A stretch of DNA of 64,000 nucleotides from positions 434,001 to 498,000 of the forward strand of contig NZ_BDCO01000003.1 of NCBI RefSeq assembly GCF_001613545.1, written 5' to 3'. The position numbers were made by a program, and so were the translations under genes. The notes under the pieces were generated by a model. The model searched no databases and was not told where the DNA came from. It was given only the letters and a program-made list of their open reading frames with translations. Source of the stretch: Terrimicrobium sacchariphilum (GTDB lineage: Bacteria; Verrucomicrobiota; Verrucomicrobiia; Chthoniobacterales; Terrimicrobiaceae). Shown piece after piece: positions 24,262 to 50,175 of the stretch. Within the stretch, counting starts at the first letter, position 1. Each line of letters opens with the position of its first letter.

Positions 24262-25662
24262 CTAGAGCCTGACCATTTCGCCGGTCTCGGCATCGTAGAG
24301 TGAGTAAACGGCTCTTCCATTTGCGTCCTGGAGGCAGAGACCCTTGATTCCGCGCACTTCAGGGAGATGGGATTCGCTCTTTCCGCTCCCGAAAACCGCA
24401 ACTCGGATTTTCGTTGCATGGGGGAGAATGGCGGCGGCCATTTGTGAGTTTCCCGCGAAGGCTCGGAAGAATGCCTCGATGGTGTTATCGGTCGGCTTTT
24501 CCAGCCATTCTTCAAATGGTATTGTTCCCGTGACCAGGATGATCTCGTTGTTCTGGCGAACCTCCGACAGGCGTTTTCCAAGTCCTTCTGCCTGCCGTCT
24601 TGCCTCTTCCTTTAGTGTCCCGCCGGCGGCAGGGATTTGTCGGAAATCATTTGCCTCAAATCCGCCGACCGCCCCTGAGAGATACGCCTCCCGGCTCACC
24701 TCCGCCCCATCGATGACGAGGGTTTCGTCTCGAAACCCAAGGTCAAAGTGTCCATACGCGCCCACGATTTCCAGATCTCCCAGTGCGAAGCTTTGAAAAT
24801 CCAGCCCGTGGACGCCCGTTTGTGTCAGCGCGGGATGCCAGTAATGCAGTCTCACCGCCTCCGGGGAAGGCGATTGTTCCCACAGTTCCCTGGGCAGCCA
24901 GTGATCCTGAGGCCCGAGGCAAATGGCCACAGGGATGTCGCCTACAGCGGTTTTCAGAGCTTCCAGACTCTCCCGGCATTGCGTCGGGTGAGCGATATTA
25001 CCTGCCACTACCAAGGCATCGGCCCGGGTTTCGTCCAGAATCTTGCGCAGCTGGGAGAGTACCACTGGCCGACGCTTTTTGTCGTGGAGCAACAAATTGG
25101 CAGTAAATAGGATGCGTGGCTTTTCTGAACTTTTTTCCCTCTGTCTCCGCGAGTTAATGATTTCGATCGTCACGGCCAGAAGGATTCCCGCCACTGCTCC
25201 TGACAGGTTGATGAAGACATCCGTCACATTTGCCGTCCTGCTTCGGAAAAAGGACTGAATATACTCGCTGCCGACAGCAAACAGGATCGAGATCAGGAAG
25301 ACAAATCCCGCAAACCGGGCATCTGCCTTGGGCGAAATGAATCTCCACGATCCCCGGGTCCTCCAGATAAGGATTGCCAGGATCAAAAACTGCAAAAAGT
25401 GGCAGGTTTTCCGAAAGATGAGGTTGGCCTCGTAGAGCTGATGCATCGGGATGCCAGGATCAAACCAACGCAGGATGGGCTGGATGATCTTGAAAGTCGT
25501 CCCCCCCGACGCCCAATCCAGCGATGCGATCAGGATCAGCACCATCCAGAGCAGGGCAGGCCACCAGCGCTCGACAGTCGGAGAAAAGGCTTTTAAGGCT
25601 TTGGCCATGAGGCTATTTACCGTCATCAGAAGAGAATTCGACTTCGCAGGTAGGCTCTTCAT
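24262..25662 (-). CDS. VanZ-like membrane domain fused to a degenerate metallophosphoesterase-like domain
   Basis: A 466-residue protein. Residues about 30-170 hold four membrane segments of the VanZ type, with FRKTCHFLQFLILAILIWR carrying the RK..HF..F motif and a GSEYIQSFFRSRTANVTDVFIN segment. From residue about 184 a calcineurin-like fold is visible (RILFTANLLLHD, ADALVVAGNIAH, VAICLGPQDHW), but the metal ligands of the family (D.H, GD, GNHD) are replaced by N, GN and GPQD, so it is probably not a phosphatase. It diverges from the polysaccharide export genes with only 6 bp between start codons. ATG 25662 has no ribosome-binding site; Met at 25626 or 25608 are alternatives. A role with the polysaccharide locus is inferred from position. 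Confidence 0.75.
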   Translation of the reverse strand: MKSLPAKSNSLLMTVNSLMAKALKAFSPTVERWWPALLWMVLILIASLDWASGGTTFKIIQPILRWFDPGIPMHQLYEANLIFRKTCHFLQFLILAILIWRTRGSWRFISPKADARFAGFVFLISILFAVGSEYIQSFFRSRTANVTDVFINLSGAVAGILLAVTIEIINSRRQREKSSEKPRILFTANLLLHDKKRRPVVLSQLRKILDETRADALVVAGNIAHPTQCRESLEALKTAVGDIPVAICLGPQDHWLPRELWEQSPSPEAVRLHYWHPALTQTGVHGLDFQSFALGDLEIVGAYGHFDLGFRDETLVIDGAEVSREAYLSGAVGGFEANDFRQIPAAGGTLKEEARRQAEGLGKRLSEVRQNNEIILVTGTIPFEEWLEKPTDNTIEAFFRAFAGNSQMAAAILPHATKIRVAVFGSGKSESHLPEVRGIKGLCLQDANGRAVYSLYDAETGEMVRL

Positions 25663-25668
25663 TTTCTA

Positions 25669-26316
25669 ATGAAATCACTCCCACTCTGCCAATGGTTTCC
25701 TCGTAGTTCCGGTTGCATCCTTTTTGCGCTGGCTCTGGCTTGCCTCGTTACCTTCTCAGGCTGCGGCGGTCCCATGTCCTTGGGTACAACGGAGGCTCCG
25801 GCGAACTACGTGCCTCATAAAAAAGAGGAGGTCTATCGCATTCGCATCGGCGATGTTGTTCAGGTGGACGTATTTCAGGAACCAGCCATGACAACTCGCC
25901 AGCGCGTGCAGGGGGATGGGACGGTAGCGGTAGCGCTCCTGGGGCGGGTGGACGTGGTGGGGCTGACCACAGCGGGTGCCTCGGAGAAAATAGCCGCCCT
26001 CCTTGATGCCAAGCAGATCGTCAAGCCGCAGGTCAATGTCACCGTACTGGCTTACGCACCTCAACGATTCACCGTTATGGGTCAGATCAAGACCGCTGGC
26101 ATGTACGTCATCCCGCCAGAGGAAAACATCTCCCTCCCCGAGGCCATCGCCATGGCCGGCGGACCGACGATCATCGGCAACTTGAAAAAGGTCTTCATCA
26201 GCCGCAAACACGGCAACGAAGTCACCCGCATGCGGATGAATGCCCTGGCCCCTAGCGCTCAGTTTTTTCTCATCCAGGAAGGTGACGTGATTTTCATCAG
26301 CGAGACGGTTTTCTAG
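25669..26316 (+). CDS. Polysaccharide export lipoprotein, Wza family
   Basis: A 215-residue protein: the signal peptide ends in a lipobox (VTFSGCGG), then a Poly_export domain (YRIRIGDVVQVDVFQEPAMTTRQRVQGDGTVAVALLGRV) and one SLBB domain (RFTVMGQIKTAGMYVIPPEENISLPEAIAMAGG). It is shorter than E. coli Wza, lacking the second SLBB and the C-terminal transmembrane helix, as in many GumB/EpsA-type exporters. It would form the periplasmic/outer-membrane channel for a polysaccharide. The stop codon abuts the ATG of the Wzc-like gene (no gap), and the beta-barrel protein further down may supply the outer-membrane pore. Confidence 0.93.
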   Translation: MKSLPLCQWFPRSSGCILFALALACLVTFSGCGGPMSLGTTEAPANYVPHKKEEVYRIRIGDVVQVDVFQEPAMTTRQRVQGDGTVAVALLGRVDVVGLTTAGASEKIAALLDAKQIVKPQVNVTVLAYAPQRFTVMGQIKTAGMYVIPPEENISLPEAIAMAGGPTIIGNLKKVFISRKHGNEVTRMRMNALAPSAQFFLIQEGDVIFISETVF

Positions 26317-28920
26317 ATGTCGAACAGCCCATCAGATTCCACTGACCTGTTTTCCGGCTCCGGCGGAGGCTCGCCCTTTGACGTGGCGACGCTGCTCTTC
26401 ACGGCTCGTCGCCTGTTTTGGTTGCCCCTGGTCCTCGCTCCGCTGGCTGCCATTGGCGGATTCGTCTTTGCCAAGACCTCCACGCCAGAGTATCGCGCCC
26501 TCGCCGAGATCCGCTTGGAAAGCCGCTCGATGACTCCAGCGGCTTCGCTGTCCGGTCCCACCGCCGATGGCGCGATGAGTCCCGAGGATCAAAATACGAT
26601 CATCCGCACTTTCGTGAACCCCATCATGGCTCGCGAGGTGGTGAAAAAGCTGAAACTCGGCGAGCGCCCCTATTTCAACGGAAAGGCGCATCCCTCCGAG
26701 GACGATCTCGTTGCCTTCATCATGGCCAACACCAAGGCCAACATCGTCGTGGGTACCCGCCTCCTGCAGGTTGCGGTGGATTATCCCGACCCGTACGTGG
26801 CCATGGAGCTGGCAAATGCCATGGCCGAGGCGGGAATGAAGTACGACCGCGACCAGCGGTCGCTCGCCCTGCGCGAGAACGTCCAGTACCTTGAGGACGA
26901 GGTCAAAAAACTTGAGGCCAACCTCGTCGGTTCCGAGACTCGCCTCAACGACTACACCCGCACGCTTGGCAGCATCTCCATCGACCAGGACGTCAATATT
27001 GCCGCCGACAAACTCAAGGATCTCAATATGCGCTCGACCGAGGCGAGGGCGAAGCGTCTTCAACTTGAGAGCTCCTATCGGGAAATCCAGGCCTATCGCG
27101 AGAACTCCGATGCCCTGCTCGGCATCGAGAGCATCCGTTCCGCTCCCGGCGTCGCCTCGCTGATCTCCAAGATCAACGATCTCAAGGGCAACCTGGCCAA
27201 GCTCCTGAAGCGTTACCGCGAGGCAAATCCCTTTGTTATTCAGGCCCGGACTGAGCTCGCCGAGGTCGAAAAGACTCTTCGTCAACAGGCTCTTGATGTA
27301 GCCAAGGGAATCGAGGCCGATCTCGCTGCCGCCCGGAGAAACGAAGAGGGTATCGCTGCCGAAAAGGCGGAGCAGGAGGGAAAGGTCATCAAGGTCAAGG
27401 AGGAGTCCATTCAGTCCAACGTCCTCCGCCGCCAGATCGACGCGGATCGGCTCGCCTACGAGGCAGCCCTGAAGCGACTCAACGAAGAGCTGTCCCAGAC
27501 CCGCAGCCAGCTCGTCATGATGCAAATGTCGGGCCCGGCCGGTCCTGGATACATGGTCTCCATGAGCACCAGCAAGACGGTGGGAGTGGCGGGCCTCGGC
27601 GGGCTGTTCCTGGGGCTGGGATTGATTGCTCTCGTCGCCCAGCTTGATAAGACGATCAAGACAGTGGAGTCGGCGGAGTCGGCTCTTGGGGTTTCCGTGC
27701 TCAGCGCCGTGCCGCGCTACGGTCCGGCCAGCGACAATCCTGGGCTGCCTTTCCGCGATTACCCGGTGATGATGGATCGCTGCTGCGCCGCCGCAGAGGC
27801 TTTTCGTACCCTGCGGGTTGCCGCCGAGCCACCGGTGGGCATCGAGGAAAATGCTGTCATCCTTCTTGTCGGAGCCGCAGGCAATGAAGGCACCTCTTTC
27901 TGTGCGGCAAATCTTGCCGTCGCTTTGGGGCAGAGCGGTCAGCGCACTCTCCTGGTCGATGCCGACCTGCGACGCAGTTCCCTCGAGGAACGCATCTTCG
28001 ATTCCGTCGGGCAGTACGGCCTCAGCGATTACCTTACGGGTCGGGTGTCCTTTCCCAATATCATTCGTTCCACCCCGGGAGAGAATGTCGACGTCGTCAC
28101 CGCCGGCACGCCCCATGCCCATCCTGCCGAGCTGCTTTCCAAAGAAGCTTTTGCCACCTTCCTGGAGGAGGCCCGGCTCCTTTACGATCGCGTGGTTTTT
28201 GACTCTGCGCCTGTGACAGTCGTGAGCGACACCCTGCGATTTGCCCACCTCTGCCAGACGATCTGCTTCGTGCTGCGATTTGGAAAGACAACTCCCGCAG
28301 AGGCGAAGCGCGCCTTCGAGCTTCTCGCCCGGGGTGGGGTAAAGGTCACCGGCACCGTCCTGAACAATGTCTCTCCCGCCTTTCCTATCAAGCTCGGGCA
28401 TCAGGATCTCCCGGAGGAGGTGTTTTCCAACCAGGGCAAGTTTGAATTCCCGGTACACTGCCCCTCCTGCAACCGTACCTACGACTCGCCTGATGATTTT
28501 ATCCACCAGACCGGTCCTCCCGGGCCGGAATGGAGCTCCAATGTCTCTGGCTGGAGCGAGCAGAGTGAGCGCATCGTTCGCCGCTGCAATTGCAATACTC
28601 TCATCGTCCTTCCTCCTGTCATGCGACGGGACAATTCCTCAGCGGGAGCCAAGCGTCGCGAAGCTTTCGCTGAGTTGATGTCTACGTTGGAGAAATCCGG
28701 CCTTTCCCGCGACGCTGCCCGCACCAGTCTCCTGCTCACTCTGAAGATGGGGCGCAGCGAGATGAATGGAGAGGCCCACCGTGAGAACTCAGAGGCCAGC
28801 CAGCAGCGCCGCAAGCTTTACGACGAAGTGCTGGAGCGCCTGGTGGCAGGGCGCATGTCTCGTGCCGTCGCGGAGACCAAGCTTCTCCATGCGATCAGGA
28901 TCTGGCAAAATGCCCCATGA
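26317..28920 (+). CDS. Wzc/GumC-like polysaccharide co-polymerase with altered P-loop and Cys-rich tail
   Basis: An 867-residue protein. N-terminal Wzz domain: first TM near residues 33-52, then a long coiled-coil periplasmic region (about 170-400) and a second TM near 420-440. Residues about 500-700 form the BY-kinase fold with Walker A' (TLLVDADLRR) and Walker B (DRVVFDSAP). The Walker A reads GNEGTSF, with Thr526 where the nucleotide-binding Lys should be, so ATP hydrolysis or tyrosine phosphorylation is doubtful. No C-terminal tyrosine cluster exists. Instead residues 715-867 have CPSC (715-718) and CNC (757-759), a possible zinc site, followed by two helical repeats. It likely sets chain length or gates export. 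It overlaps the next gene by 4 nt. Confidence 0.88.
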   Translation: MSNSPSDSTDLFSGSGGGSPFDVATLLFTARRLFWLPLVLAPLAAIGGFVFAKTSTPEYRALAEIRLESRSMTPAASLSGPTADGAMSPEDQNTIIRTFVNPIMAREVVKKLKLGERPYFNGKAHPSEDDLVAFIMANTKANIVVGTRLLQVAVDYPDPYVAMELANAMAEAGMKYDRDQRSLALRENVQYLEDEVKKLEANLVGSETRLNDYTRTLGSISIDQDVNIAADKLKDLNMRSTEARAKRLQLESSYREIQAYRENSDALLGIESIRSAPGVASLISKINDLKGNLAKLLKRYREANPFVIQARTELAEVEKTLRQQALDVAKGIEADLAAARRNEEGIAAEKAEQEGKVIKVKEESIQSNVLRRQIDADRLAYEAALKRLNEELSQTRSQLVMMQMSGPAGPGYMVSMSTSKTVGVAGLGGLFLGLGLIALVAQLDKTIKTVESAESALGVSVLSAVPRYGPASDNPGLPFRDYPVMMDRCCAAAEAFRTLRVAAEPPVGIEENAVILLVGAAGNEGTSFCAANLAVALGQSGQRTLLVDADLRRSSLEERIFDSVGQYGLSDYLTGRVSFPNIIRSTPGENVDVVTAGTPHAHPAELLSKEAFATFLEEARLLYDRVVFDSAPVTVVSDTLRFAHLCQTICFVLRFGKTTPAEAKRAFELLARGGVKVTGTVLNNVSPAFPIKLGHQDLPEEVFSNQGKFEFPVHCPSCNRTYDSPDDFIHQTGPPGPEWSSNVSGWSEQSERIVRRCNCNTLIVLPPVMRRDNSSAGAKRREAFAELMSTLEKSGLSRDAARTSLLLTLKMGRSEMNGEAHRENSEASQQRRKLYDEVLERLVAGRMSRAVAETKLLHAIRIWQNAP

Positions 28921-30527
28921 AGACGCGCCCGCGTTGGAGGTCGTCTCCCGGCGTCTTCTTTCTGCTCTTCGCGGTGTCTTCTCTCCTGGGGCTCGTCTCA
29001 GGTAGAGCACAGGCACCTTTTCTTTCCCGTTCATCCAACCAGCCCGAAACTTTCGACACCGTTTATCCGGCGAATTACGCGCTGGATTTTCCGAATCTCC
29101 CGGAGTCCGATCCGATGAATGACGTTCAGGTGGAACTGCCGCCCGGCATCGACGTCCTCACCAACCCGGAGATCCTCGACTATCAGGCCGCGTTGAAGTC
29201 CGACATGCCTTCCCGGACGCCCGCCGAATACGATTCCGAGGAGGGCAACCGCATCGCGGACTTTCAGAATACGCCCCAGTCGATGGCGCTTTTCGGTAAT
29301 GACTACGCCTCCAACTCCGAGGTCGTCCTGAGCAACGCAGGGCATCCCATTTTTTACGATCTCAGCCGTACCGTCGGCTCATTCGGCTTGAATGAGACTC
29401 CACTCGTCACCGAGATGCCTCTGATCCCGGAGCCGGGCACCACTCTGGACAAGCCGATCGCCCCGCGCGCGAAATGGGGGCCTTGGAGGATGGCCCTCGA
29501 CGTAATGGGCAGTTCCTCCGTGTTCTACAATGTTTTTGGCAGCACGAAGAATCCCCAAAGCGACATGGTTTATGCCCTCAACCCGCGCTTCTACCTTGAG
29601 GCGGGAACCAAAGGATTCTTCAGGCTGTCCTATGCACCGAGCTTTTTGCGGTATTCGAAATTCAAGGATCTCGATAGCGACAACCAGAATCTCTCCGTTT
29701 CGGTGACCTATCCCTTCAGCAAACTGCGCACCGGAGCCTCCTTTTCTTATCTCACCCAGAGCGGACTCTTTCTCAACAACCCCTCAGGCCAGGGCCAGCA
29801 GGATACGGCGCTGGCCTCCCTCAGCGCATCCTATCCGCTGACGACCAAAGCCAATATCGCTCTCGGCTGGATGGGGGTACTTCAGCAAAACGACCCTGGC
29901 GGCCGAAAGACGGAGAATACCGCCACCCTGGGAATGTCATACACCCCGGGAGCCAAGGCGGTCTTTGGCGGACTGGTGCGTCTGGGCAGCATCCAGGCGC
30001 CCGCCGGAGATCAAAATTTCTTCGGTCTCCAGGGCGAAGCGGCTTATCGGTGGGATTTTCACTGGCGCTTTTCCGCGCGAGCCGGGGTGGATTGTCGCTT
30101 TCTCGACCCTCCGCCCTATGGCCAGTCCAGCCCCATGCTCACACCGGTCTTTGACTTGAATGCCAGCTACCACTGGACGGCAAATGCTACTGCTCTGCTC
30201 CGGTTTTACCGCTTTGTGGGTACGGATACCTTCACCTCCGTGAGCATGGACATTCAGACGGGAGCGGAGTTGGGCTTTCTCCTCCGAGCCTATCGCAAGA
30301 CGGATGTGAAATTCCTGATGACCGTCGGGTATACCGAGATGTTTGCCGAGGAGGAAAGCGGCGAGCAGAATTATGCATTCGTCCAGGGTGGTGTGTCCGT
30401 TTCCTACACTGTTATGAAATGGGCCGATGTGGTACTGTTTGGCAATGTTCAGCAGCGCTTCCAGGATGACCAGGGACTCAACTACCTCAGCGGTACTCTG
30501 GGCCTCGGACTCAATCTCAAGTTCTGA
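28917..30527 (+). CDS. Predicted outer-membrane beta-barrel protein of the polysaccharide operon
   Basis: A 536-residue protein with a signal peptide (FFLLFAVSSLLGLVSGRAQA). Residues about 40-190 are polar and Pro/Asn-rich. From about 195 to the end there are many alternating amphipathic strands with aromatic girdle residues (FYLEAGTKGFFRLSYAPSF, LSVSVTYPF, AGVDCRF), and the chain ends in Phe after LGLGLNL, typical of a BamA-inserted barrel. ATG 28917 overlaps the Wzc-like stop (ATGA), so the protein is coupled to polysaccharide export and may form the outer-membrane pore. I do not recognise a named family. Confidence 0.75.
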   Translation: MKTRPRWRSSPGVFFLLFAVSSLLGLVSGRAQAPFLSRSSNQPETFDTVYPANYALDFPNLPESDPMNDVQVELPPGIDVLTNPEILDYQAALKSDMPSRTPAEYDSEEGNRIADFQNTPQSMALFGNDYASNSEVVLSNAGHPIFYDLSRTVGSFGLNETPLVTEMPLIPEPGTTLDKPIAPRAKWGPWRMALDVMGSSSVFYNVFGSTKNPQSDMVYALNPRFYLEAGTKGFFRLSYAPSFLRYSKFKDLDSDNQNLSVSVTYPFSKLRTGASFSYLTQSGLFLNNPSGQGQQDTALASLSASYPLTTKANIALGWMGVLQQNDPGGRKTENTATLGMSYTPGAKAVFGGLVRLGSIQAPAGDQNFFGLQGEAAYRWDFHWRFSARAGVDCRFLDPPPYGQSSPMLTPVFDLNASYHWTANATALLRFYRFVGTDTFTSVSMDIQTGAELGFLLRAYRKTDVKFLMTVGYTEMFAEEESGEQNYAFVQGGVSVSYTVMKWADVVLFGNVQQRFQDDQGLNYLSGTLGLGLNLKF

Positions 30528-30616: not shown

Positions 30617-32020
30617 ATGTTTCAGCATCGTGAATTAGGACTCATCCAAGGCTATCAACTAGGTACGACGATCATTCTGACGATCGTCTTTTGGGCCTAT
30701 TACTTCATCATGGAGTATTTTATCCCTGGTGTGGCCCTCACGGCAGCGACGAATTACTTCGAGTTCTATCTCGCCATCACGCTGGCCTTTCAGATTTCGT
30801 TTCTGATCACCAAGCACAACGACATCCTGTCGGTCTCGTCGGGTATGGTGGAGAGCCATCGCCTCGTCTGGTCGCACATCCCGCCTACGCTGGCTATCAC
30901 GTGCATCTTTCTCATTCTGACGAAGGATGCAGCCATCTCCCGGCTCTTTCTCTTTACCATCGTCCCGCTGCTCTACGTCGTCCTGCTTGTTTACACCCGC
31001 TTCTTTGCCCTGGACATTCTCCGCTTCATGCTGCACCACCAGCATCATAAGCTCCTCTTGGTCGGGGAGCCCTCCGAGCTGGAAAATGTCCGCTCACTCC
31101 TAGAAAAGTCGAAGCTCTTTGGTTTCGAGATCGTGGGCATCGTTACCGATGCTCCGCCGGAGGAACTGCCGCCCTCGATTCGCAAGCTCGGCGCTCCCGA
31201 TGATATGGAGGCCATTCTCGATGAGCAAAAGGTGGGAAACATCTTCATTCTGGGCAGTCCCCGCGATCGCCGTATGCTGGGCGGCTGGATGCGGCTCGCC
31301 GAGGCTCACGGATGCCGCGTCTCCCTCGTCAATGACCTCGATCGTTTCCTCCAGAGGCGTCTTTCCTATTTTCGCTGCGACGATGTGGATCTCATTGAAC
31401 TGCGCGAGGAACCTCTGCAAAATCTCGTGAATCGCGCCTACAAGCGCATCTTCGATATCGTCGTCAGTCTTCCGGTCGTCTGTTTCATCCTGCCGCCGTT
31501 GATGTTTGTGATCTGGATCGTGCAGAGGTTTCAGTCTCCCGGTCCCCTGTTTTTCCGGCAGATCCGCTCGGGCCTCGACAACCAGCCATTCACCATCCTT
31601 AAGTTCCGTACCATGTACGCGGATCAGTGCGACTCCGCTGCGCAGGCGACCATGGGGGATGCGCGGGTGTATCCGTTTGGCCGTTTTCTGCGTCAATACA
31701 GCCTGGATGAGTTTCCGCAGTTCTTCAATGTGCTTACCGGGCAGATGAGTCTGGTGGGACCGCGACCGCATATGACCCAGCACGACAAGGTGCTGGCCGA
31801 GGTCATGTCCACCTATCCGCTGCGGGGGTTTGTGAAACCGGGCATCACCGGGCTCGCCCAGATCCGGGGATTTCGCGGTGAGACCGCCACCCGCGACGAC
31901 ATCATTCATCGGGTGGAGTGCGACATCGAGTACGTCGAGACCTGGTCGTTTTTCCTCGATATCCGCGTCGTCTGGCGGACTGCCCTTCAGGTCTTGTTTC
32001 CGCCCAAGAGCGCCTACTAG
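30617..32020 (+). CDS. Polyprenyl-phosphate sugar-1-phosphate transferase (WcaJ/WbaP-type)
   Basis: A 467-residue initiating transferase of polysaccharide synthesis. The N-terminal half has four membrane segments (residues about 15-135), followed by a CoA-binding-like Rossmann region (LLLVGEPSELENV, then GSPRDRRMLGGW). The C-terminal catalytic domain (about 275-467) shows the bacterial sugar transferase motifs YKRIFDIVVSLP, SPGPLFFRQIRSG, ILKFRTMYAD, RQYSLDEFPQFFNVLTGQMSLVGPRP and KPGITGLAQI. It loads a hexose or N-acetylhexosamine 1-phosphate onto undecaprenyl phosphate in the inner membrane. It ends 3 bp from the end of the convergent glycosyltransferase operon. Confidence 0.95.
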   Translation: MFQHRELGLIQGYQLGTTIILTIVFWAYYFIMEYFIPGVALTAATNYFEFYLAITLAFQISFLITKHNDILSVSSGMVESHRLVWSHIPPTLAITCIFLILTKDAAISRLFLFTIVPLLYVVLLVYTRFFALDILRFMLHHQHHKLLLVGEPSELENVRSLLEKSKLFGFEIVGIVTDAPPEELPPSIRKLGAPDDMEAILDEQKVGNIFILGSPRDRRMLGGWMRLAEAHGCRVSLVNDLDRFLQRRLSYFRCDDVDLIELREEPLQNLVNRAYKRIFDIVVSLPVVCFILPPLMFVIWIVQRFQSPGPLFFRQIRSGLDNQPFTILKFRTMYADQCDSAAQATMGDARVYPFGRFLRQYSLDEFPQFFNVLTGQMSLVGPRPHMTQHDKVLAEVMSTYPLRGFVKPGITGLAQIRGFRGETATRDDIIHRVECDIEYVETWSFFLDIRVVWRTALQVLFPPKSAY

Positions 32021-46908: not shown

Positions 46909-48035
46909 GCGACGGATTTGAGCAAGCCCGCAACCACGGCTTCATTGCTGACCCGGTCGCGCCATTTGCGGGAGATGCGTTCGGGATCGCGCTGATGGTG
47001 ATCCCAGCGCTGTAACTCGGCCAGTGTGGCTCTTGCGAGGCTGGCGTCATCCCGATGTGTGGCAAGAGTACCCGATGCCCCTTGGTCGACCAGGGCGATA
47101 AAGCCCGGCAGAAGAGGGGCTACGACGGTCGCTCCGAGACAAAGAGCCTCCAGCGACCCAATTGGCTGCGTCTCCCAACGGGAGGAAGCGAGCAGAAAAC
47201 GCGCCTCCGCGAGGATATTCCGCAATTCCCCACGGGGGATGCGCCCGGCGAGACGCACTCGGGACTCTCTCGTCAGCGTGGAAAAATTCTCCATTCCCGC
47301 CCCGGCGACGACAAATCTCACATCTTCGCGCTCTGCCAGTACACGTCGGATCGTTCTCCGCAGCAGGGGGGCATCCTTTTGCACGTCGTCCCACCTGCCT
47401 CCGCAAAAGATGAGAGGCGGGCGTATTGCTCCTCCGATGGGCGCGGTGAGAAACTCGTCTTTCACACTATGCGGGACCACTGCGATTCGTTCGGCGAGTT
47501 CCTCTCGGCCGTAATGGGTGAAGATCACGTTCAGGTTTTCTGCGGCCTCCTGCGATTCGATCGCGATGGCATCCGAGGCTGCCGCTGTCGCGAGGATTTC
47601 CGCGTCTTCCTCCCTGCTCAAGTGAAAGTAGCGGCGCACCCAGTGGACGCCTTCGCGGAATCGGTCTCTGGCGGTTTGCGCAGAGGACAGGCATAGGGAA
47701 AGTGTCTCCCGGGGGAACACTCGTACGCTGGCCAGTCCGTCGCTATCGGCCCGAGTGACGGTGCGCGTCCCGGCCTGTCGCAGCGCGTTAAGGAGGAGCG
47801 AACCTTTCAGCCAGTTGAAAACAATCGCAATATCGAGTCCCTGTCGCCGCCAGTAGCCGACATCCGACATCTCTGCCGGGGAGGCTACCACGACCGGAAA
47901 ATCCGCTTCTCCCGCATCATTGCCGAGACAATATAAAAACGGTTCATGTCCCAGGCGGGCGAGCGCAGCGCAGTAACCGTCCTGATCGATGGAGGCTCTC
48001 CACCAGCGTGTGGTCAGAACGATCGCGACCTTCAC
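46905..48035 (-). CDS. Glycosyltransferase, GT4-like
   Basis: The product is 376 residues from GTG 48035 (VKVAIVLTTRWW), overlapping the Wzt stop as GTGA; the frame open to 48227 is rejected as antisense to wzt. Donor-side motifs: PLIFCGGRWDDVQKDAPLLRRTI-like region, then SSRWETQPIGSLEALCLGATVVAP with an E-x7-E-like arrangement. The acceptor domain includes QDGYCAALARLGHEPFLYCLG. More divergent than its neighbours but clearly GT-B. Confidence 0.85.
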   Translation of the reverse strand: MKVAIVLTTRWWRASIDQDGYCAALARLGHEPFLYCLGNDAGEADFPVVVASPAEMSDVGYWRRQGLDIAIVFNWLKGSLLLNALRQAGTRTVTRADSDGLASVRVFPRETLSLCLSSAQTARDRFREGVHWVRRYFHLSREEDAEILATAAASDAIAIESQEAAENLNVIFTHYGREELAERIAVVPHSVKDEFLTAPIGGAIRPPLIFCGGRWDDVQKDAPLLRRTIRRVLAEREDVRFVVAGAGMENFSTLTRESRVRLAGRIPRGELRNILAEARFLLASSRWETQPIGSLEALCLGATVVAPLLPGFIALVDQGASGTLATHRDDASLARATLAELQRWDHHQRDPERISRKWRDRVSNEAVVAGLLKSVA

Positions 48036-49291
48036 GTCTCGGCCCGGGCTTGCGAGGTCAGCCGGAAACTTGCGAGGACTTTGCCCGCGTTTTTGGCGCT
48101 TGCCAGGGAATAACCCAGCGTCGCTACATCGGAGCCGACATGAAACCGGCATGCATCCGGCCAGTGATCGATGATTCCGGCGCTGTGGAGGAAGGCCTCC
48201 ACCCGGTAGTCTCCCGGTGGCAGCCACGGGGAGTCGATCACCACCTCCACCTCACGGTTTCCGGGAGCAATGCCACCTCCGTCGAGGTACTCGCTGTTGA
48301 TGGCGAAGATTTCGTCATCGGCTTCGTTGCGAAAATGCAGCGAATAATGAAATTTTGCATCGTCGCGGAATTGTCTGATCCCCGCCCGGAAGACGAGTGG
48401 AGTTCGCGCCGCGAATTCTTCCGCCGTTGGGGTCACGTATTCCAGCCGATGTGTTCCGGTGCCAGATCGGGCGTTCATCGCCACAGCGATCCCGGTGTCT
48501 TCGGCGGACATGCCTTCCTTTTTGTACCGGGCGATCGTGTTTTCCGCCGTATCGGTCAGGACCAGGCGGCCTTCCTTGAGCAGGATGCCCTTGCGGCACA
48601 ACGCGGCGACAGCTGGCAGATTGTGGCTCACGAAGAGGACTGTCCGACCATTGGCGGTCACCTCCTTCATCTTGCCAATGCACTTCTTCTGAAACTCGGA
48701 GTCTCCCACGGCCAGCACTTCGTCGACGATGAGGATCTCGGGTTCCAGATGTGCCGCCACGGCAAAGGCCAGCCGCACATACATACCGCTGGAATACCGC
48801 TTCACTGGCGTATCGAGGAACTTCTCGATCCCTGCAAAGTCCACGATTTCGTCAAATTTTCGCCGGATCTCCGCCCGGGTCATTCCGAGGATGGCTCCAT
48901 TGAGATAGATGTTTTCACGCCCGGTCAGTTCAGGATGAAATCCCGTCCCGACTTCCAGCAGGCTTGCGACCCGGCCTTTGACTCCGACGCGTCCCGTGGT
49001 GGGTTCCGTGATGCGGCTGAGAATCTTGAGCAGCGTGCTCTTCCCGGCGCCGTTGCGTCCGAGGATGCCGACCACATCGCCCCGATTGACCGTAAAGGAT
49101 ACGTCCTTGAGCGCCCAGAATTCCGCGCTATCCGGTCCGGCCTGGACCTTGCGCGCCGCCTTGATCCAGCGGAGCGGAGCCGTCGCGACATTCTGGATGG
49201 CGTGGCGCAACGTACCGTAGGGCTGGAGCGTCTGGCCCAGCATGTAGAGCTTCGACAGGCCCTCGACTCTGATGACGATGTCGTCGCTCAT
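48032..49291 (-). CDS. Polysaccharide ABC transporter ATPase with C-terminal glycan-binding domain (Wzt)
   Basis: The product is 419 residues from ATG 49291, 2 nt after the permease stop. The nucleotide-binding domain has Walker A GRNGAGKST (78-86), signature YSSGMYVRLAF (about 166) and Walker B ILIVDEVLAVGD (about 196). The family feature YGTLRHAIQN near the N-terminus marks the TagH/Wzt exporters. Residues about 275-419 form a Wzt_C-like beta-sandwich (RLEYVTPTAEEFAARTPLV ... SPWLPPGDYRVEAFLHSAG), which in O9a-type systems binds the capped non-reducing end of the glycan. It drives export of a completed lipid-linked polysaccharide. Confidence 0.94.
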   Translation of the reverse strand: MSDDIVIRVEGLSKLYMLGQTLQPYGTLRHAIQNVATAPLRWIKAARKVQAGPDSAEFWALKDVSFTVNRGDVVGILGRNGAGKSTLLKILSRITEPTTGRVGVKGRVASLLEVGTGFHPELTGRENIYLNGAILGMTRAEIRRKFDEIVDFAGIEKFLDTPVKRYSSGMYVRLAFAVAAHLEPEILIVDEVLAVGDSEFQKKCIGKMKEVTANGRTVLFVSHNLPAVAALCRKGILLKEGRLVLTDTAENTIARYKKEGMSAEDTGIAVAMNARSGTGTHRLEYVTPTAEEFAARTPLVFRAGIRQFRDDAKFHYSLHFRNEADDEIFAINSEYLDGGGIAPGNREVEVVIDSPWLPPGDYRVEAFLHSAGIIDHWPDACRFHVGSDVATLGYSLASAKNAGKVLASFRLTSQARAET

Positions 49292-49293
49292 GC

Positions 49294-50175
49294 TCAGATG
49301 ATGTCGGCGAACATTCGTTCGGTTTTCCTGAAAAAGGCCACTCCGCCGACAAAGAGCCCGATGGATACAGCGAGCGAAAGCCATGTTCCGAGATGAAAGC
49401 CCACCGCATCGCCGCCCAGGATCGCCCAGCGAAAACCGTCAATGATGCCCACCAGGGGATTCAGGCAATACAAGGCGAACCATCCGGCGTGGAGTTTTTC
49501 CCGTATTACCTCGCTGCTATAAGCCACGGGGCTGACGTACATGCCGAACTGCACGACGAAGGGAACGATGAAACGAAAGTCCCGATACCGCACGGTCAAC
49601 GCCGTGATAAAAAGTCCTGCTCCCGTAGCCGCGAGGATGGCCATGAGAGTGAAAAGGGGCAACGCGAGCAGCCGCCATGTCGGCAGGAAATCATACCACG
49701 CCATCAAACCGCCCAGGATGACGAGGGAAACGGCGAAATCGACCAGCGATACCAGCACCGCGCTTGTTGGGATGATGGCTCGCGGGAAGTAGACCTTGGA
49801 GATCATTCCGGCGTTGTTCACCACGCTCTGTCCGGCATTGGACACCGCATTGGAGAAGAACTGCCATGGCAGCATGGCCGCAAAGACCATGATGGCGTAG
49901 GGCGCGGTGCCCAGCGAAGGGAGGCCGGCCACTTTGCCAAAGATCACCGTCATGATGATCATGTTGATCAGGGGTTGGAGGATTGCCCAAGCGGCTCCGG
50001 CCACCGTCTGCTTGTAGCGTACTGCGACGTCCCGCCACGCCAGGATGAAGAGCAACTCCCGGTACCTCCAGAGATCGTGCCAGTACCGCTTCTCGGAGTG
50101 CCCCGCCTCGATCACAAGATCGAAATCCCCAAACGAGTCGCTGGTAGCGGGCAGGGGAGTGGCAGATGAAGTCAT
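49294..50175 (-). CDS. Polysaccharide ABC transporter permease (Wzm)
   Basis: A 293-residue ABC-2-type membrane protein with six hydrophobic segments. The amphipathic gate and first TM region (ELLFILAWRDVAVRYKQTVAGAAWAILQPLINMIIMTVIFG) is the hallmark of Wzm/TagG exporters. It forms the inner-membrane channel with Wzt. It is the first gene of the 17-gene run, so the operon promoter should lie in the 126 bp upstream (50176-50301), where I see no convincing -35/-10 pair. Confidence 0.94.
   Translation of the reverse strand: MTSSATPLPATSDSFGDFDLVIEAGHSEKRYWHDLWRYRELLFILAWRDVAVRYKQTVAGAAWAILQPLINMIIMTVIFGKVAGLPSLGTAPYAIMVFAAMLPWQFFSNAVSNAGQSVVNNAGMISKVYFPRAIIPTSAVLVSLVDFAVSLVILGGLMAWYDFLPTWRLLALPLFTLMAILAATGAGLFITALTVRYRDFRFIVPFVVQFGMYVSPVAYSSEVIREKLHAGWFALYCLNPLVGIIDGFRWAILGGDAVGFHLGTWLSLAVSIGLFVGGVAFFRKTERMFADII

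Follow-up and report, generated by a model that had tools for sequence, protein, structure and literature searches.

What does a Wzc-type polysaccharide co-polymerase do with its BY-kinase domain once the catalytic lysine and the tyrosine cluster are gone? This question is raised by a gene of Terrimicrobium sacchariphilum, which lies within the window, i.e., the whole 64,000-nucleotide stretch of contig NZ_BDCO01000003.1 that was analysed. According to the accepted model, cycles of tyrosine phosphorylation assemble and dismantle the Wzc ring, and this model is already strained by pseudokinases. An earlier note on this DNA proposed a pseudokinase scaffold with a cysteine-rich tail, and we followed up its claims by profile, structural and comparative genomic analyses.

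Gene, domains and locus

The gene and its neighbours have the following layout, with all coordinates given for the window.

24262..25662, minus strand: VanZ protein, divergent, with the C-terminal half a degenerate calcineurin-like phosphoesterase (profile and motif comparison)
25669..26316, plus strand: OPX-type export protein (Poly_export, SLBB), directly upstream (PF02563, 70.4 bits, cut-off 28)
26317..28920, plus strand: Wzc-type polysaccharide co-polymerase of 867 aa whose BY-kinase-like domain lacks the lysine and is followed by a C4 tail (frame, profile matches, PDB relatives)
26317..27726, plus strand: membrane and periplasmic co-polymerase part, residues 1-470 (sub-cut-off TIGR01005, TIGR03017 and Wzz matches)
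27727..28386, plus strand: BY-kinase-like domain, residues 471-690 (TIGR01007, PDB relatives, dN/dS)
27796..27816, plus strand: ExxRxxR motif, E494, R497 and R500 (invariant among the six tailed proteins)
27865..27906, plus strand: P-loop region, residues 517-530, with Thr for Lys at codon 526, 27892-27894 (alignment)
27946..27972, plus strand: Walker A' TLLVDADLR, residues 544-552, retained (alignment)
28186..28215, plus strand: Walker B region DRVVFDSAPV, residues 624-633, Asp629 retained (alignment)
28459..28593, plus strand: C4 part from CPSC (715-718) to CNC (757-759), zinc-ribbon-like (invariant Cys, predicted strands)
28627..28764, plus strand: first helix hairpin, about residues 771-816, predicted helices 775-793 and 798-816 (model)
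28792..28917, plus strand: second helix hairpin, residues 826-867, predicted helices 826-844 and 849-864, repeating the first (profile match, model)
28917..30527, plus strand: probable outer-membrane barrel protein, directly downstream (weak sub-cut-off barrel matches; order kept)
30617..32020, plus strand: polyprenyl glycosylphosphotransferase, WcaJ-like (PF02397, 202.4 bits; TIGR03025, 345.7, cut-off 295.55)

The co-polymerase and the kinase-like domain are fused in one frame and do not form a stand-alone pair. The gene position, the operon and the alignment are consistent with a Wzz-type co-polymerase part, whose profile scores lie below the cut-offs (PF02706, Wzz, 21.4 bits against a cut-off of 25.5; TIGR01005, 151.8 against 411.7), and two hydrophobic stretches at about residues 34-52 and 419-441 were read by eye as transmembrane segments. 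With 114.6 bits against a cut-off of 108.05, the following domain qualifies for TIGR01007 (polysaccharide tyrosine autokinase), which makes it an NCBIfam member of the BY-kinase-like kind, and its nearest solved relatives by sequence are BY-kinases, namely BceF (E 2.4e-29), Etk, CapA/CapB and Wzc. The ExxRxxR motif, which has a role in ring assembly, is also present.

The P-loop of the 867-residue protein reads LLVGAAGNEGTSFCAANLA, and Thr526 of its GAAGNEGTSF stretch, which the earlier note had read as the substitute for Lys, occupies the column of the Walker A lysine in alignments with BceF, Etk and CapA/CapB; two relatives have Ala and Val at this place. The further claim that Walker A' and Walker B remain holds as well, with Walker A' reading LLVDADLRR and the aspartates D548, D550 and D629 all in place. 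Past residue ~690, the usual site of the BY-kinase tyrosine tail, the protein continues with a linker, CPSC, CNC and then 108 residues, where the note had given about 100; the tyrosine cluster is absent, with one Tyr within the last 60 residues.

The OPX - co-polymerase - barrel order is kept in four related genomes (G008, G003, G004 and G005), and contig ends split it over two contigs in G007. Beyond the WcaJ-like gene, the window encodes glycosyltransferases and a Wzy_C protein. The locus is likely Wzy-dependent; no Wzx flippase was identified among the window frames searched. Besides this Wzy_C protein, the window also encodes an ABC transporter ATPase with a sub-cut-off Wzt_C match (48035-49438, minus strand). 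Four LMW tyrosine phosphatases (PF01451) are found in the genome, none of them within the window.

Lysine loss, its order and the selection on the locus

Besides the window protein, its genome (three contigs) encodes two further Wzc-type proteins, both having GEGKS and tyrosine-rich ends. Among the 26 genomes of the window's taxonomic family (f1), tailed orthologues were found in six, including the window's own. Residue 526 is Thr in the own genome, Ala in G008 from the same genus (g1) and Val in G003 (genus g3), and the three tailed proteins of genus g4 (G004, G005 and G007) keep the P-loop lysine in a GKS motif; the tailed copy of G007 is cut near its start by a contig end. A Verrucomicrobia MAG (L033), apparently identical with the G008 genome, carries an orthologue with 89% identity and Ala at 526. 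Since G008/L033 has Ala and G003 has Val at this position, a sequencing error at codon 526 was ruled out. No orthologue of the window protein was found in the third g1 genome, G009. In genus g2, a GEGKS-containing protein of G002 (L010, 1180-3615) has a frame that stops, whether by nature or by an assembly fault, within the kinase domain and possesses neither a tyrosine cluster nor a C4 tail.

For a broader comparison, we took the 59 best-scoring loci of the searches (L001-L033 and L082-L107), of which four (L002, L032, L033 and L030) were dropped as a second match of the same gene or for a missing kinase part. The P-loop lysine is present in 52 of the 55 BY-kinase proteins compared and all three exceptions bear the C4 tail, so that Thr, Ala or Val occupies the lysine position in 3/6 tailed versus 0/49 untailed proteins. 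Other active-site replacements include Asn for the second Walker A' Asp in L007 (G004) and L009 (G003), Gln at the same place in the truncated L010, Glu for the first Walker A' Asp in L084, and Asn for the Walker B Asp in L007. At least one active-site lesion occurs in four of the six tailed versus two of the 49 untailed proteins; the close relationship among the tailed proteins means that these counts are not independent. None of the six tailed proteins has a tyrosine cluster. Two of them, L006 and L008, keep every catalytic residue checked, and therefore the C4 tail alone is not a sign of a dead kinase. The coupling of lysine loss to the cysteine tail, which the earlier note had raised, is not supported, because the same tail occurs together with GKS in all three genomes of genus g4, a finding that the note itself had named as a refutation. 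Outside the tailed group, five Wzc relatives from family f4 (L093, L097, L099, L104 and L106) keep the P-loop lysine, have no C4 tail and contain at most 2-3 tyrosines per 25-residue stretch near the C-terminus; they may have left phosphotyrosine control by a different route.

Outside the family, the nearest relatives without the C4 tail are three proteins from family f7 (36-38% identity), which have both GKS and the tyrosine cluster. In a midpoint-rooted maximum-likelihood tree of 24 proteins with their tails cut off, the f1 proteins group together at 100/99 and the f1 and f7 proteins at 100/100. The lysine-less genera g1 and g3 group at 91/96, short of the strict mark of the tree tool, and the tree gives no settled order among g2, g4 and g1+g3. 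Judged by this distribution, the C4 tail appears to be the older feature and the lysine loss the later one. In the simplest history, the C4 tail would have replaced the tyrosine tail within f1, and the lysine would then have been lost once before the g1/g3 split, followed by drift to Thr, Ala and Val; the lysine may also have been lost twice.

The window gene (G000) was compared with its G008/L033 orthologue by the NG86 method. The dN/dS ratios are 0.081 for the whole gene, 0.069 for residues 471-690, 0.086 for residues 691-867 and 0.097 for residues 713-867, all of them rough because dS is about 0.8. Within the stretch 513-556, these two proteins differ by two residues, N523Q and T526A. Purifying selection on the kinase-like domain is strong, and a domain conserved in the absence of its catalytic lysine would be expected of a scaffold.

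The divergent VanZ-phosphoesterase gene beside the OPX gene has relatives in L033 (3933-5342), L037 (5554-7086) and L038 (1521-2963). In G007, the C-terminal half is recognised as a calcineurin-like phosphoesterase, scoring 36.4 bits with PF00149 (cut-off 21.5) and containing SDLH, GD, GNHD, THT and GHTH, which we take to be the metal-site motifs of this family; this intact copy sits on a contig where a second PCP copy is represented by its first ~281 residues only. The G004 half is borderline (PF00149, 21.0 bits for the whole protein and 22.7 for the half alone) and reads SDLH, GD, GNQD, THT and GHTF. Both g1 genomes have ANLL, GN, GPQD or GPRD, and TGT in the same places; the GHxH motif is missing, and Pfam finds no phosphoesterase in their VanZ gene. 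The phosphoesterase-derived half in g1 has a dN/dS of 0.163, indicating purifying selection. As judged from these motifs, genus g1 appears to have lost both the kinase lysine and the metal-site motifs of its neighbour. In G005, the phosphoesterase frame stops once the first motif is passed; only VanZ is present in G002, and G003 gave no match to the VanZ-phosphoesterase in the 10 kb looked at.

The C4 tail

The four cysteines are invariant in all 21 aligned tail domains (15 stand-alone genes and six fused forms), a hand-chosen set from which G140, G439 and the later-found G602 were left out. In each of the six fused tails, the last 45 residues match the same profile positions as the preceding stretch (E 2e-8 to 5e-4), hence the helix hairpin is a tandem repeat. 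The zinc ribbon suggested by the earlier note found a divided answer in structure prediction: a two-sequence AlphaFold model of the tail (mean pLDDT 65.7, pTM 0.52) has short strands round both cysteine pairs, but its confidence is modest and Foldseek gave no match at E <= 0.001 (best E 0.19, 7egb_R). The best Z score in VIA-align was 5.3, and neither program named a structural relative. A model of the kinase-like domain plus tail was useless (mean pLDDT 40.2). The cysteine pattern and the tail model are consistent with a zinc-ribbon-like part that would bind metal.

A search of the tail against Pfam and NCBIfam at E <= 10 gave no family over its cut-off. The best PDB profile match, the zinc-finger protein 2i13_A (E 0.0017 as the full-sequence value, with no individual stretch within the limit), was rejected as a chance CPxC likeness over 23 positions. 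A literature search for BY-kinases and zinc yielded no cysteine or zinc tail by title, and one on Wzc and exopolysaccharide in Verrucomicrobiota yielded no such tail, as judged from the listing alone. By these Pfam, NCBIfam, PDB profile and title-level literature searches, the tail is undescribed.

Stand-alone copies of the tail domain are encoded by frames of 148-170 codons (212 in G072, from stop to stop). With a seven-row profile, the domain was found at E <= 0.001 in 13 of 213 genomes of the order and in 8 of 387 genomes of the phylum sample, and a wider profile found it at E <= 1e-4 in 11 of 384 genomes of the class sample; fused forms are included in these counts, some genomes are shared between the samples, and the weakest matches, G140 and G439, may be due to chance. 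Across the order, phylum and class searches, the fused tail was seen only in family f1. A search of the window's genome turned up no stand-alone C4 copy (the next match, at E 0.009, contains stops), and a search of plasmid records with one stand-alone tail protein was negative at E <= 0.001. Among the g4 genomes (G004, G005 and G007), a stand-alone C4 gene immediately follows the divergent VanZ gene that adjoins the OPX gene; having this gene as well as the fused tail, the g4 locus encodes the C4 module twice. In family f7, the stand-alone C4 gene adjoins a hybrid histidine kinase gene (HATPase_c and receiver) in all three loci tested (L070 4527-5162, L072 8183-8644 and L080 8127-8594), and L071 looks alike by eye.

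A proposed tail-controlled scaffold, its alternatives and known systems

We consider the window protein to be a ring-forming co-polymerase of an exopolysaccharide locus, whose BY-kinase domain serves as a structural pseudokinase controlled through its tail without a phosphotyrosine cycle (probability roughly 0.55). The pseudokinase scaffold of the earlier note thus stands as the best reading, with the catalytic lysine and the tyrosine cluster lost and four invariant, zinc-ribbon-like cysteines present; given the loss of both the lysine and the phosphorylated tail, the protein is probably a scaffold rather than a kinase. For E. coli Wzc, passages of PMC8285477 and PMC11986026 describe the unphosphorylated octamer as stable, with tyrosine tails entering the neighbour's site and phosphorylation breaking the ring, and the inactive K540M mutant as octameric. 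By analogy, a protein having neither the lysine nor the tyrosines should stay in the ring-forming class. The kinase-like domain would still build the ring, and ring assembly and release would be set by binding events at the C4 and hairpin tail, since the protein would be unable to phosphorylate itself and has no tyrosine cluster. Docking could take place through a metal-stabilised ribbon and the hairpins, and nucleotide occupancy would possibly add control. The retained E494, R497 and R500, the conserved OPX - co-polymerase - barrel order and the absence of a PF01451 phosphatase from the window also speak for this reading. Counted against this scaffold reading are the three tailed proteins that keep GKS and the Walker A' and Walker B motifs that the window protein itself keeps.

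The alternative that overlaps most with the scaffold is a lysine-less but nucleotide-binding assembly switch similar to BcsQ, in which ATP or ADP would steer the ring without tyrosine phosphotransfer. We regard it as possible, though doubtful. E. coli BcsQ has GGVGTTT, with Thr in place of the P-loop lysine, also in its PDB chains, and is described as ATP-bound in a passage of PMC11470070; the Wzc K540M structure was solved with ADP-Mg, as stated in part of PMC8285477. In light of these two statements, lysine loss is not proof of lost nucleotide binding, and nucleotide occupancy may still matter in the window protein, where the Walker A' and B aspartates are kept. The pocket is, however, not strictly conserved among the lysine-less members, since residue 526 drifts between Thr, Ala and Val and G003 has Asn for the second Walker A' Asp, and the window protein is not a BcsQ by profile (PF06564, CBP_BcsQ, 13.3 bits against a cut-off of 21.3; TIGR03371, 19.4 against 157.85). 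A redox- or metal-sensing role of the C4 tail, switching the ring on or off, is unlikely: the invariant cysteines and the hybrid histidine kinase genes beside the tested f7 stand-alone copies speak for it, but structural zinc accounts for the cysteines equally well and no regulatory link is seen at the window locus.

Continued activity as a tyrosine kinase, with the role of the lysine filled by another basic residue or another protein, is highly improbable. The retained Walker A' and B motifs and the two other GEGKS Wzc proteins of the genome would allow for it. The alignment of residues 440-700, however, reveals no replacement lysine, a possibility that the earlier note had left to be checked. 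R559 and R576 mark the only positions at which the three lysine-less rows share a basic residue that is missing from the three GKS rows; as both lie outside the nucleotide motifs, a lysine function supplied from elsewhere was judged unlikely, and there is no tyrosine cluster to serve as substrate. The least credible scenario is a gene in the course of decay, for which the drifting lysine position and the lost motifs of the neighbouring phosphoesterase could be cited. Such pseudogene decay is disfavoured by the dN/dS of 0.081, and the frames are open at full length with the operon order kept.

A more speculative and rather doubtful extension of the scaffold reading is a phosphorylation-free ring of the Verrucomicrobiota, where the C4 and hairpin module took over control from the tyrosine tail, in g4 possibly by binding the stand-alone copy, and where the kinase and phosphoesterase centres then died in the window lineage while both proteins stayed under selection. 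Apparent stages of such a change survive: an outgroup with lysine and tyrosines, one genus with the lysine only and two genera with neither. This series makes it testable what replaces phosphotyrosine control, with the C4 tail as a concrete candidate. Worth following are this tail module, the series of relatives at graded stages and the locus with its double degeneration.

Similar to E. coli Wzc (PCP-2a, an active BY-kinase), the window protein is a co-polymerase fused to a BY-kinase-like domain, has Walker A', Walker B and ExxRxxR, and is encoded beside an OPX gene. Unlike Wzc, it lacks the P-loop lysine and the tyrosine tail, has a C4 and helix-hairpin tail instead, and has no LMW phosphatase gene in the window. 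BcsQ, from cellulose secretion, shares with it the P-loop threonine and the service to exopolysaccharide secretion. It belongs to a separate subfamily, forms a stand-alone ATP-bound dimer with BcsR, and has no co-polymerase part and no C4 tail.

Closer parallels are found among pseudokinases. According to passages of PMC12004946, EcpK, acting with EpsV in M. xanthus, and HfsB, acting with HfsA in C. crescentus, are held to serve exopolysaccharide co-polymerases without phosphorylation, and they resemble the window protein in having a kinase-like domain without the catalytic motif or a tyrosine tail and a helical C-terminus. However, they are polypeptides of their own; all three Walker motifs are missing from EcpK, whereas the window protein has lost the lysine only and kept the aspartates, and the same passages describe no C4 tail for EcpK or HfsB. 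As a further group, PMC12004946 cites pseudokinases fused to their co-polymerase, among them SMc01795. Another fused protein, PssP2, has no Walker motifs and no tyrosine cluster and yet affects polymer length, as stated in part of PMC4182512. The window protein matches these fused PCP-2 pseudokinases in combining a co-polymerase and an inactive BY-kinase-like domain in one polypeptide; it differs from PssP2 in keeping Walker A' and B, and the relevant parts of both papers mention no C4 tail for this group. The fused BY pseudokinase is thus a kind already in print, and the C4 tail is the variant.
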